Source: Sphingobium scionense (GTDB lineage Bacteria; Pseudomonadota; Alphaproteobacteria; Sphingomonadales; Sphingomonadaceae). From it: a stretch of 64,000 bases of DNA. Shown here one piece after another: positions 27,701-51,705 of the stretch. The number at the start of each line of letters is the position of its first letter. The stretch's first letter is position 1. Made by a program: the position numbers and the translations under genes. The stretch covers positions 62,001 to 126,000 of the forward strand of contig NZ_JACIEU010000001.1 in assembly GCF_014197035.1 (NCBI RefSeq). The letters are read 5' to 3'. Under the pieces are notes generated by a model that was given only the letters and a program-made list of their open reading frames with translations, searched no databases and was not told the origin of the DNA.

Positions 27701-28597
27701 ATGATCGATCCCCGCGCGCTTCGCACCTTCCTCGCCGTCTGCCGTGCCAATTCGATCAGCGGCGGCGCGCGACTGCTCAACATCTCCCAGCCATCGGTGT
27801 CCAATGCGATCGCGCAACTGGAACAGTCGGTGGGCGCAGCCCTGTTCGCCCGGTCGCGCAGCGGCATCAGCCTGACGCCGGAGGGCGAAGTGCTGCTGCG
27901 CCGGGCGGAGGCGGTCGACAGCCTGATCAGCGGCGCGGAGGAGGAATTGCGACTGGCGCGCGCGGGCGTGACCGGGCCGCTCCGCGTCGGCGGCACGCCG
28001 GGCGCCCTCGTCAGCCTGCTGCCCGACGCGGTGCGGCGGCTGGAGGACAAGATGGGCCATTTCGCGCTGCACGCGGTGGAGCGGCCCGACCATGACCTGG
28101 CCGACATGCTGCACCGGGGCGAGATCGAGCTGGCCTTCGTCACCACGGGGCTGGAGGAGCCGCCCGAAGGCATTGAGGAAATCACCTTTGCGCAGGATCC
28201 GTTCGCGCTGGTGGTCGGGCGCCGCAACGACCATCTGCCGGCCGAGGTGTCGCTGCGCGACATGATGGCCAAGCGCTGGGTGCTGCCGGAGGCGCGCGGC
28301 GCCTTTCGCCGGCAGATCGATGCGCTGTTCATGGCAGCGGGCGTGCCCGTGCCGCAGGACGTGATCCGGTGCGATTCGCTGCTGACGACCAAGGCGATGG
28401 TGCGGAACAGCAGCCGGCTGACCATCCTGCCGATGAAGGTGGCGGCGGCCGAACTGTCGATCGGCGTGCTGCGCGCGATCGCCATTCGCGAAGCGACCTT
28501 CCAGCGCAGTATCGGCATCCGCAAGCTGAAGGATGCGCGCCTGTCGCGGCTGGGCGAGGCGCTGCTGGACATCATGATCCATAGCTCCAAGCTATGA
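27701..28597 (+). CDS. LysR-family regulator of the aromatic/glycoside island
   Basis: A 298-residue LysR-type activator. The winged helix-turn-helix is at the N-terminus (LRTFLAVCRANSISGGARLL, then SQPSVSNAIAQLE) and the effector domain starts near 90 (GPLRVGGTPGALVSLLP). ATG 27701 is chosen because the domain begins directly after it; the in-frame ATG at 27665 would add 12 residues with no family match. It lies 80 bases upstream of and in the same direction as the amidohydrolase-hydroxylase-dioxygenase run, a usual arrangement for the cognate regulator of an aromatic pathway. Confidence 0.85.
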   Translation: MIDPRALRTFLAVCRANSISGGARLLNISQPSVSNAIAQLEQSVGAALFARSRSGISLTPEGEVLLRRAEAVDSLISGAEEELRLARAGVTGPLRVGGTPGALVSLLPDAVRRLEDKMGHFALHAVERPDHDLADMLHRGEIELAFVTTGLEEPPEGIEEITFAQDPFALVVGRRNDHLPAEVSLRDMMAKRWVLPEARGAFRRQIDALFMAAGVPVPQDVIRCDSLLTTKAMVRNSSRLTILPMKVAAAELSIGVLRAIAIREATFQRSIGIRKLKDARLSRLGEALLDIMIHSSKL

Positions 28598-28677
28598 CGT
28601 TCCCAAAAATCATTATTATTCTTGCATATAAATTCGGCGCATAAGGGCATTCAACAAGAGACCAAGGGAGAGCCCTC

Positions 28678-29913
28678 GTGCGGCAGCTGATCCGCAATAT
28701 TGCGATTTTCGACGGGACGGGCAGTGCGCCCTTCCCCGGCGCGGTCATGATCGAGGGCGATCGCATCGCAGAGGTTCTGCGCGACGAGGCCGAAATCGAT
28801 GCGGCGCAGGCCGACATGGTGATCGACGGCCAGGGCGCGACGCTGATGCCCGGCATGGTCGATGCCCACACCCATCTGACCTGGGGCAGTTCGGTCGAGA
28901 AAATCTATCATCAGTTCATCCTGCCGCCCGAGGAGCTGAAGGTCGCCGCCTGGCGCAACGCCCGCGTGCTGCTCGACCATGGCTATACCAGCCTCTATTC
29001 GGCCGGCGCGCTGGGCGACCAGATCGAGCCGGAACTCGCCCGCGCCATATCGGCGGGCGAAACCCCCGGCCCGCGCCTGGTGCCCTCCACGCTGGAGCGC
29101 AGCCCGGAAGGCGAGGAAGGGGTCGAAACCGGCGATGTGTTCAACGGCCGTGGCCCCGAAGCGATGCGCGCCTTCGTCGCCTATTGCGCGGCGGAGGGCG
29201 TCAAGTCGCTCAAGCTGGTGATTTCGGGCGAAGATGCGCTCAAGCCCGGATCGTCGCAGGATATCCTCTACACCGACGCGGAAATGATCGCGGCCGGCGA
29301 GGCGGCGAGAGAAGCAGGCCTGTGGATCGCCACCCATGCCTATAGCCCGCGCGCCATCAATCTGGCGCTCGAAGCCGGCGCCCGCATCCTCTATCATTGC
29401 TCCTTCGCCGATGACGCGGCGGTCGACGCCATGGCGGCGAAGAAGGACGCCATCTTCTACGCCCCCGGTCCCGGCGTATCGGTCGCCGCGCTGGAGGCCA
29501 GCCCGCCGCCCCATATCGACATGCGTTCGATGAAGGCGAGCGCGGCCGAGCGGCTGGAACTGGAAAAGACATTGGTGCCCAAATTGAAGGCGCGCGGCGT
29601 GCGCGTCCTGCCGGGCGGCGACTATGGCTTCCCCTTCAATCCCCATGGCCGCAATGCCCGCGACCTGGAGCATTTCGTCACTTATTATGGCTTCACCCCG
29701 GCCGAGGCGCTGCACGCCGCCACCATGTTGGGCGGCGAGCTGATGGACCAGCCCTTAGGCCAGGTGAAGCCGGGCTATCTCGCCGACCTGCTGCTGGTCG
29801 AGGGCGATCCGACGACGGACGTCCGCCTGCTGCAGGATGCGGCCAATATCAAGATGATCATGCTGGGCGGGCGGATGCACAAATCCCCCGTGCCCGAGCC
29901 CCTGACGGTCTGA
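28678..29913 (+). CDS. Amidohydrolase-superfamily enzyme
   Basis: A 411-residue metal-dependent hydrolase of the imidazolonepropionase/prolidase-like branch. H64 and H66 in DAHTHLTWG, K179 in KSLKLVISG, H220 in WIATHAY, H240 in ILYHCSF and an aspartate in LPGGDYGFP make a plausible metal-site set. It starts at GTG 28678 with AGGGAGAG upstream. It is first in a tightly packed run with an aromatic hydroxylase and an extradiol dioxygenase, so a C-C, lactone or amide hydrolysis in the same pathway is likely, but the reaction is not known. Confidence 0.8.
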   Translation: MRQLIRNIAIFDGTGSAPFPGAVMIEGDRIAEVLRDEAEIDAAQADMVIDGQGATLMPGMVDAHTHLTWGSSVEKIYHQFILPPEELKVAAWRNARVLLDHGYTSLYSAGALGDQIEPELARAISAGETPGPRLVPSTLERSPEGEEGVETGDVFNGRGPEAMRAFVAYCAAEGVKSLKLVISGEDALKPGSSQDILYTDAEMIAAGEAAREAGLWIATHAYSPRAINLALEAGARILYHCSFADDAAVDAMAAKKDAIFYAPGPGVSVAALEASPPPHIDMRSMKASAAERLELEKTLVPKLKARGVRVLPGGDYGFPFNPHGRNARDLEHFVTYYGFTPAEALHAATMLGGELMDQPLGQVKPGYLADLLLVEGDPTTDVRLLQDAANIKMIMLGGRMHKSPVPEPLTV

Positions 29914-49764: not shown

Positions 49765-50821
49765 CGGCCAGACCAGCACCCGCGTGATGTGGATGCGCGG
49801 CGGCACGTCCAAGGGCGGCTATTTCCTTTCGGAAGACCTGCCCGCCGATGGTGCCGCGCGCGACGCCTTCCTGCTGCGGGTCATGGGATCGCCCGATCCG
49901 CGCCAGATCGATGGCATGGGCGGCGCCGATCCGCTGACCAGCAAGGTCGGCGTCGTGAAGAAATCCGAGCGGGAGGGCGTCGATGTCGACTATCTCTTCC
50001 TCCAGGTCTTCGTCGATCAGGCGATCGTCAGCGACGCGCAGAATTGCGGCAATATCCTGGCCGGCATCGGCCCCTTCGCGATCGAGCGCGACCTCGTCGC
50101 CGCGCAGGACGGCGAGACCCGCGTGGCCATCTTCATGGAAAATACCGGGCAGATCGCGATCGCCACGGTGCAGACGCCCGGCGGCAAGGTCCGCTATGAT
50201 GGCGAGGCCAGGATCGACGGCGTGCCCGGCAGCGCCGCGCCGATCCCGCTGGAGTTTCGCGACACCGCCGGCTCCTCCTGCGGCGCGCTGCTGCCGACCG
50301 GCAACGCCTTTGACGAGGTGGAGGGCGTGCGCGTCACCCTGATCGACAATGGCATGCCCTGCGTCGTGATGAAGGCGCAGGATGTCGGCATTACCGGCTA
50401 TGAAGACCGCGACACGCTGGACAAGGACAGCGCGCTCAAGGCCCGGATCGAGGCGATCCGATTGGCCGTCGGCGAGCGGATGAACCTGGGTGACGTGCGC
50501 GAAAAGTCGGTGCCCAAGATGATGCTGGTCGCCCCGCCCCGCGATGGCGGTGCGGTCACGGTGCGCAGCTTCATCCCGCATCGCGCCCATGCCTCGATCG
50601 GCGTGCTCGGCGCGGTCAGCGTCGCCACCGCCTGCCTGATCGAAGGATCGCCCGCGGCCGAGGTGGCGTCGATCCCCCAAGGCAATCGCAAGACGCTGTC
50701 GGTCGAGCATCCGACCGGCGAGACGACCTGCGTCATGGAACTGGACGAGAGCGGCGCGGTCACCAGCGCCGCCATGCTGCGCACCGCGCGCAAGCTGATG
50801 GATGGAGAGGTTTTCGCATGA
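49757..50821 (+). CDS. ligU: 4-oxalomesaconate tautomerase/isomerase
   Basis: Moves the double bond of 4-oxalomesaconate before hydration by LigJ. It is a 354-residue PrpF/diaminopimelate-epimerase-fold protein. K63 in [12 protein letters not shown] and C97 in [11 protein letters not shown] keep the 34-residue spacing of the LigU catalytic pair K66 and C100. Other blocks are [15 protein letters not shown] at the N-terminus and [11 protein letters not shown] in the second domain. The gene overlaps ligK by eight bases and ligI by four, so the three are one coupled unit. Confidence 0.9.
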
Positions 50822-51705
50822 CCGCCCCCCAACTTGGCCGGATCATTAGCTGGCACGGCAATCCGACCAAACCGCGCTACACCCCGCCGGCCGGTGCGAT
50901 CGACGCCCATTGCCATGTGTTCGGCCCGATGGCGCAATTCCCCTTCAGCGCGAAGGCGAAATATCTGCCGGAAGATGCCGGCCCGGACATGCTGTTCGCG
51001 CTGCGCGACCATCTGGGCTTCGCCCGCAACGTCATCGTCCAGGCAAGCTGCCACGGCACCGATAACGCGGCGACGCTGGAGGCCATCGCCAGGTCGAACG
51101 GCAAGGCGCGCGGCGTCGCCGTGGTCGATCCGGCCATTTCGGAGGCTGACCTCGCCGCCCTGCATGAGGGCGGAATGCGCGGCATCCGCTTCAATTTCCT
51201 GAAACGCCTGGTCGATGACGCGCCCAAGGACAGGTTCCTGGAAGTGGCGAACCGCCTGCCCAGGGGCTGGCATGTCGTCATCTATTTCGAGGCGGACATA
51301 TTGGAGGAACTGCGCCCCTTCATGGACGCGATTCCGGTGCCGCTGGTGATCGACCATATGGGCCGCCCGGACGTGAGCCAGGGGCCGGATGGCGCCGACA
51401 TGAAGGCGTTCCGCGCCTTCCTCGACAGCCGCGACGACATCTGGTTCAAGGCGACCTGCCCGGATCGTCTGGACCCGACTGGAGACCCATGGAACGCCTT
51501 TGCCGATGCGGTCGCACCGCTGGTCGCCGACTATCAGGACCGCGTGCTGTGGGGCACCGACTGGCCGCACCCGAACATGCAGGATGCGATCCCCGATGAC
51601 GGCCATCTGGTCGACATGATCCCGCGCATCGCCCCGACGGAGACATTGCAGCGCAAGCTGCTGATCGGCAATCCGATGCGGCTCTACTGGCCCGAGGAAT
51701 TATAA
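50818..51705 (+). CDS. ligI: 2-pyrone-4,6-dicarboxylate hydrolase
   Basis: Opens the PDC lactone made by LigC. It is a 295-residue, metal-independent member of the amidohydrolase superfamily with H31 and H33 in DAHCHVFGP, identical in number to the known enzyme, and the catalytic aspartate in [10 protein letters not shown] near 248. Other blocks are [16 protein letters not shown] and [10 protein letters not shown]. It overlaps ligU by four bases. A 10-bp hairpin about 30 bases past its stop probably ends the ligKUI transcript. Confidence 0.95.

Follow-up and report, generated by a model that had tools for sequence, protein, structure and literature searches.

According to the available passages of two reports, the fde pathway of Herbaspirillum seropedicae attacks naringenin by 8-hydroxylation of the A ring, carried out by FdeE, followed by A-ring dioxygenation by FdeC (PMC11069340, PMC11303751), and in the ifc pathway of Variovorax V35 isoflavones are hydroxylated at C8 and ring-cleaved, with a pyranone as intermediate (PMC11069340). 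On the sugar side, RHA-P, a GH106 rhamnosidase of Novosphingobium sp. PP1Y, is reported in the passages at hand to hydrolyse naringin, rutin and neohesperidin dihydrochalcone (PMC6710449), in agreement with a first-pass annotation of the present locus, which had stated that sphingomonad GH106 enzymes act on rutin and naringin. Here we describe a 64,000-nucleotide stretch of Sphingobium scionense DNA (the window, to which all positions refer) that carries a twelve-gene plus-strand block at 27701-42869. From its predicted genes we interpret this block, or island, with moderate confidence as a Sphingobium operon for the utilisation of flavonoid glycosides by an A-ring-first route.

The order of genes in the block is a LysR-type regulator (LysR1), an amidohydrolase (AmiH), a group A FAD hydroxylase (FMO), an HbpS-like protein (HbpS), a VOC (glyoxalase-type) extradiol dioxygenase, a FAH-family hydrolase, a TonB receptor, an esterase-like alpha/beta hydrolase (Est1), GH1, a second esterase (Est2), a 142-amino-acid protein and GH106 (Table 1). 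The FMO adjoins the VOC dioxygenase, as in fde and ifc. FdeR is a LysR-type regulator. The likeness to fde, which has an FAD hydroxylase and a dioxygenase, and to ifc, whose cluster holds a group A FMO, a glyoxalase-type dioxygenase and an alpha/beta hydrolase (PMC11069340), is one of description in the available passages and not of sequence identity; at that level the hydroxylase and extradiol logic invoked by the first-pass annotation agrees with both. The block differs from fde in its additional AmiH, HbpS and Est1, and the passages available on fde mention neither glycosidases nor a TonB receptor. In ifc the pyranone is handled by the cupins IfcD1/D2, whereas the window has a PF01979 amidohydrolase and no cupin; the available sections on ifc do not mention glycosidases, and they describe IfcA as inactive on an isoflavone glycoside (PMC11069340). 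Several loci were set aside as stand-ins for ifc: Variovorax L171 gave no VOC match, the VOC proteins beside the FMO in two Variovorax plasmid loci (L081, L082) are short (~185 amino acids), and Bosea L084, although it has cupins, reaches just 43% identity in the FMO and 36% in VOC. The protocatechuate 4,5-cleavage (lig) pathway of sphingomonads is matched by the genes that follow the block at 43543-51705. The earlier annotation knew of no published locus that unites all of these functions, and none appeared among the matches listed in the open-access full-text literature.

The block is a conserved unit in Sphingobium

Gene identities were taken from Pfam and NCBIfam profile scans of the island and lig proteins, and the start codons of VOC, FAH, Est1 and LysR1 were chosen from homologues. 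All the genes named beforehand are present; only the 142-amino-acid gene had been left out. Intergenic spacing from AmiH to GH106 is -4 to +70 bp, a layout as in one transcription unit, and the gap between LysR1 and AmiH is 80 bp.

To place the block among its relatives, 120 genomes, with that of the window among them, were searched, presence counts resting on tblastn. The FMO (E ⩽ 1e-80) was matched in 36 of them, all Sphingobium, 32 at ⩾81% identity and four at just 42-46%. Gene order was compared in 30 of the 31 other Sphingobium island loci, one on a 16-kb contig (G025) being left out. The search for the same gene order that had been suggested for other sphingomonads gave a clear outcome here, with the first seven genes, LysR1 to the TonB receptor, in the same order in 30/30 loci. 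Est1 and GH1 were each found in 29 of the 30 and GH106 in 28, one island running off its contig and one being without GH106 at this place, while Est2 and the 142-amino-acid gene (26/30 each) vary in order. From the constant LysR-TonB order and the retention of GH106 in 28 of 30 loci, it is clear that the block is a real conserved unit; the order of its first seven genes, together with the invariant or nearly invariant catalytic residues described below, puts it far beyond chance. Its most variable slot is the TonB receptor, with either 61-98% or 28-31% identity to that of the window across the 30 loci. A metallo-beta-lactamase-fold protein stands behind the receptor in four Sphingobium islands and in PP1Y.

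The block lies on megaplasmids in Sphingobium TomTYG65 and Novosphingobium PP1Y, being rearranged in the latter; loci L032-L037 are plasmid records, and the island of G050 is on the single contig of that genome. The aromatic and glycosidic halves also occur together, with a gene order that differs, in some gammaproteobacteria and in Novosphingobium, Sphingomonas and Croceibacterium. An AmiH-type core with GH1, in some cases also with GH106, was seen in Alteromonadales and other gammaproteobacteria (L113, L122, L132, L133, L139, L150, L159), together with a recurring gene of ~200 amino acids that, from its start, we take to be glutathione S-transferase (GST)-like. More distant FMO-VOC-FAH modules were also found (L080, L083, L038, L039), with a PF04909-type amidohydrolase in Massilia, Rhizobium and Falsirhodobacter, and with TRAP transporters alongside in Rhizobium, Falsirhodobacter and Alloyangia, the last also having a cupin protein and a GST. 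These distant loci suggest that ring-cleavage modules of this kind form a wider family.

Two mutually exclusive ring-opening cassettes

A broader sample of 88 FMO-bearing loci was assembled from 80 of the 133 relatives in named genomes found by an FMO-alignment scan and from eight plasmid loci, many of the loci being cut at 10 kb. The 80 relatives span Sphingobium, Novosphingobium, Sphingomonas, Caulobacter, Alteromonadales and others. AmiH was present in 74 of the 88 loci and a quercetinase-like bicupin in eight, with none having both and six having neither. The VOC partner divides in the same manner: a VOC of the window type was found in 77 loci and a second type in ten (none with both, one with neither), and this second type is present in all eight bicupin loci and in 0/74 AmiH loci. 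HbpS is not exclusive, being matched in 3/8 bicupin and 71/74 AmiH loci. The remaining genes are shared, as the bicupin loci have FAH, Est1 and GH1 in 8/8 cases and GH106 in 7/8, and Est1 is present in 68 of the 74 AmiH loci.

The exclusivity extends to whole genomes. In 20 genomes, comprising all seven bicupin-type and 13 of the 69 AmiH-type genomes among the 80, the bicupin (E ⩽ 1e-20) was matched in 7/7 bicupin-type and 0/13 AmiH-type genomes, and AmiH (E ⩽ 1e-60) in 0/7 and 13/13, respectively. Thus islands with the same kinds of glycosidases have either of two ring-opening cassettes that exclude each other, which is a new finding of this analysis. On trees built by a quick method (FMO row L100 left out), the bicupin loci need one change on the FMO tree, at a weak support of 52, and four on the GH1 tree. 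The glycosidase genes thus appear to have been transferred between the two island types.

All six PDB matches of the bicupin at E ⩽ 0.001 are quercetinases, one of them listed as YxaG, and its two halves stand in reversed order relative to YxaG. We take the metal of YxaG to be held by three His and one Glu; in the metal-site half of the bicupin an Asp occupies the position of that Glu in 8/8 sequences, and the three-His-one-Glu site is absent. By sequence the bicupin is a quercetinase homologue, putative in function. We advance, as possible rather than probable, a modular scheme in which sphingomonad islands would combine a shared deglycosylation and A-ring set with either an AmiH/VOC or a bicupin/second-VOC cassette. 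AmiH would then be a new hydrolase of the residual aryl-pyranone (lactone) left by flavones and flavanones, the bicupin would oxidise the 3-hydroxy form derived from flavonols, and the cassette would predict the class of flavonoid.

Enzymes of the sugar and aromatic halves

The GH106 protein of the window is full length, has an export-like N-terminus and matches PDB entry 6q2f with 1328 bits. The GH106 encoded in the PP1Y island (L033) matches the same entry over its full length with 2625 bits and shows zero differences in the part of the alignment displayed, which reaches to around residue 950 of 1147. The PDB title reads merely 'glycoside hydrolase family protein'; we take 6q2f to be RHA-P. 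The literature passages at hand treat RHA-P as an isolated enzyme, whereas in PP1Y the gene for the 6q2f protein lies in the orthologous island. Four Glu positions of GH106 were checked in the 49 of 50 loci with enough match coverage: two are conserved in 49/49, one in 48/49, and one in 43 with six gaps. Both catalytic Glu residues of GH1 are invariant in 66/66 sequences. Rhamnose-catabolism-like genes are found close to the island in 11 of the 88 loci (PP1Y and ten others), RhaD-like and RhaI-like genes in 10/88 each; we infer these names from the pairing of an aldolase with a dehydrogenase domain and from a weak TIM-barrel match, respectively.

In the aromatic half, six metal-site positions of AmiH, which matches prolidase-like and ochratoxinase-like enzymes, among others, in the PDB, are invariant in 73/73 aligned loci (one of the 74 having too little coverage). 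The His-His-Glu iron ligands of VOC, at positions that we presume, are invariant in 77/77, as type I extradiol dioxygenases require, and the Est1 serine is invariant in 78/78. The roles of the conserved catalytic residues in all island enzymes are likewise those we assume them to have. Since these positions are invariant or nearly so, the island enzymes look active.

The two esterases had both been assigned to the removal of acyl groups, and this fits Est2 only. Est1 was rejected as a sugar-ester deacylase because it stays with the ring-cleavage core in two loci, Novosphingobium aromaticivorans pNL2 (L032) and ES2-1 (L034), which have no glycosidase gene in the surrounding 14 kb; it belongs with the aromatic half of the island. 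An identity with the MhpA pathway was also rejected, as the dioxygenase beside the FMO is of the VOC type and not a class III MhpB (PF02900); the PF02900 protein of the window is LigB.

The 12 island proteins gave no Pfam match to a cupin. A YxaG-like quercetinase was found neither in the 120 relatives, including the window genome, nor in the 13 AmiH-type genomes, in searches run with a positive control, and this absence fits an attack on the A ring first. The window genome has six pirins, but pirins match in 8 of 14 control genomes as well and we judge them uninformative.

Proposed pathway and alternatives

The substrate is probably a flavonoid rhamnoglucoside, judging from the rhamnosidase of PP1Y and from the sister islands with the bicupin, and it would enter through the TonB receptor. 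Est2, where present, may strip acyl groups, after which rhamnose would be removed by GH106 and glucose by GH1. The FMO would then hydroxylate the A ring of the aglycone at C8, as FdeE and IfcA do, VOC would cleave the hydroxylated ring, and FAH would cut the opened chain. AmiH and Est1 might open the left-over C-ring pyranone or lactone and its ester or C-C bond to give a B-ring acid, which would go to protocatechuate 4,5-cleavage, the genes for which adjoin the island here but are located away from it in most relatives that have the island. The sequence in which the rings open and the parts played by AmiH, HbpS and Est1 are put forward as hypotheses. An A-ring-first order fits the island because it has no recognised C-ring dioxygenase, yet has in AmiH a hydrolase that could open a pyranone lactone, alongside Est1, which stays with the aromatic core even in loci with no glycosidase close by. 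The flavonoid rhamnoglucoside of the first-pass annotation is thus supported by genomic context, while its deacylating Est1 and its constant join to lig are not.

Several observations weigh against this A-ring-first pathway. The FMO subfamily is publicly named 3-(3-hydroxyphenyl)propionate hydroxylase. GH1 accompanies AmiH in only 58 of 74 loci and GH106 in 43 (many loci ending 10 kb from the FMO), and in pNL2 and ES2-1 the aromatic core has no glycosidase close by. One query with the RhaI-like putative rhamnose isomerase of PP1Y, run without a positive control, gave no match in the window genome. The exclusivity of the cassettes may reflect a single evolutionary event, and C-ring-opening enzymes of another kind, such as the pirins of the window genome, may still take part.

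If instead the C ring were opened first, elsewhere or by the bicupin in the sister islands, the FMO, VOC and FAH would work on the A-ring fragment once freed, for example 2,4,6-trihydroxybenzoate or phloroglucinol. The pairing of a quercetinase-like bicupin with the same FMO and FAH speaks for this, as do the distant Falsirhodobacter and Rhizobium modules, which stand beside TRAP transporters and PF04909 amidohydrolases as expected for small aromatic acids, and Est1 could serve such a route as a depside esterase. However, the AmiH-type genomes searched have no YxaG-like quercetinase, AmiH is a hydrolase, and the bicupin itself has an Asp in place of the Glu ligand of YxaG. The type of VOC also switches together with the bicupin, which is unexpected if the monoaromatic substrate stays constant, though this may be one event. 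We regard a C-ring-first order as rather unlikely.

Another phenolic rhamnoglucoside as the substrate, for example a phenylethanoid such as verbascoside, a rhamnosylated coumarin, a phenylpropanoid or a dihydrochalcone, with VOC and FAH working like HpaD and HpaG, seems quite unlikely to us. The VOC profile does match structures of homoprotocatechuate 2,3-dioxygenase with E ~1e-24, second to 3b59, a dioxygenase-family protein of unnamed function, and FAH matches HpaG-type proteins; a Sphingobium GH106 acts on saponins, as described in the passages available (PMC10653915). The HpaD and HpaG models nevertheless score far below their cut-offs (58 of 321 and 168 of 276 bits), the sister islands hold a quercetinase-like gene, and the substrates of the PP1Y rhamnosidase in the available passages are flavonoids (PMC6710449). 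It is very improbable that a rhamnoglucoside-scavenging set (TonB receptor, GH1 and GH106) merely happens to adjoin an unrelated aromatic operon, as the core without nearby glycosidases in pNL2 and ES2-1 might be taken to indicate: the gaps do not exceed 70 bp, and the halves are conserved jointly in Sphingobium and, with varied order, in the other genera and gammaproteobacteria named above.

Should the flavonoid-glycoside pathway hold, a characterised rhamnosidase would gain its likely physiological pathway, and a gene list would be at hand for degrading whole flavonoid glycosides, compounds that plants both store and exude, under aerobic conditions. The hosts with this ability could then be counted in genomes, functions would be proposed for AmiH, HbpS and Est1, and the type of cassette would be a genetic marker that should predict the flavonoid class used by a strain.

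The neighbouring protocatechuate 4,5-cleavage genes

The full lig set does follow the block, as had been stated, though on both strands and with a LysR gene of its own. Curated NCBIfam cut-offs were passed by LigA, LigB, LigK and the 4-oxalomesaconate tautomerase, the last presumably in the LigU role; the names LigC, LigJ and LigI are those we assume from domain and position. LysR2 has 386 amino acids, with an extra winged-helix domain before a complete LysR protein, and its two HTH_1 stretches align with each other at a score of 63; the same length was seen in L073-L076.

The island and the lig genes adjoin here, but the idea that this join is a fixed feature of the island was rejected. LigB is no more than 20 kb from the FMO in at least 6 of the 32 island-bearing Sphingobium genomes (that of the window, G016, G021, G029, G050 and G062), which is a lower bound because draft contigs end. 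In two further genomes (G010, G047) it is ~51 kb away, and G028 gave no LigB match at the threshold used. Beyond these, lig genes lie near the island in four other loci of the 88, namely in PP1Y, Novosphingobium piscinae, a Sphingomonas metagenome-assembled genome (MAG) and a gammaproteobacterial MAG. The join is therefore lineage-specific and does not define the island; that it turns up in different lineages hints at a functional link between the two.

Table 1. Predicted genes of the island and of the adjoining lig set, in window positions (ORF, open reading frame)
Gene product	Position	Strand	Basis and remarks
LysR1, LysR-type regulator	27701..28597	+	PF03466, PF00126; ORF opens at 27665
AmiH, amidohydrolase	28678..29913	+	PF01979
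FMO, group A FAD aromatic hydroxylase	29930..31438	+	PF01494 (1e-68); NF004829 (MhpA-like subfamily) above cut-off
HbpS-like/DUF336 protein	31435..31863	+	PF03928; 4-bp overlap with FMO
VOC type I extradiol dioxygenase, two-domain	31860..32780	+	Pfam/NCBIfam
FAH-family hydrolase	32780..33610	+	PF01557
TonB-dependent receptor	33646..35931	+	Pfam
Est1, alpha/beta hydrolase with Ser-Asp-His	36002..36850	+	Pfam; by eye no signal peptide
GH1, beta-glucosidase-like	36875..38179	+	Pfam/NCBIfam; twin-arginine-like N-terminus by eye
Est2, esterase, PaeX/AxeA1-like but below cut-offs	38194..39099	+	Signal-like N-terminus by eye
142-amino-acid hydrophobic protein	39096..39524	+	No Pfam match
GH106 alpha-L-rhamnosidase	39540..42869	+	PF17132, 1017 bits against a cut-off of 29
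LigC-like dehydrogenase	43543..44484	-	PF19858 and position
LigB, protocatechuate 4,5-dioxygenase beta (PF02900)	44504..45352	-	Pfam, NCBIfam
LigA, protocatechuate 4,5-dioxygenase alpha	45352..45801	-	Pfam, NCBIfam
LigJ-like amidohydrolase	45854..46876	-	PF04909 and position
DUF1932 NAD-binding protein	46873..47769	-	Pfam
LysR2, candidate lig regulator	47834..48994	-	Pfam; extra N-terminal winged helix
LigK, 4-carboxy-4-hydroxy-2-oxoadipate aldolase	49030..49764	+	NCBIfam
4-oxalomesaconate tautomerase	49757..50821	+	NCBIfam
LigI-like amidohydrolase	50818..51705	+	Best model 4-sulfomuconolactone hydrolase, below cut-off

Further along the window, the minus strand at 54614-61557 encodes a cytochrome P450, followed by 3-hydroxyisobutyrate dehydrogenase, 3-hydroxyisobutyryl-CoA hydrolase, acyl-CoA dehydrogenase and methylmalonate-semialdehyde dehydrogenase, a set that we take to serve valine catabolism.

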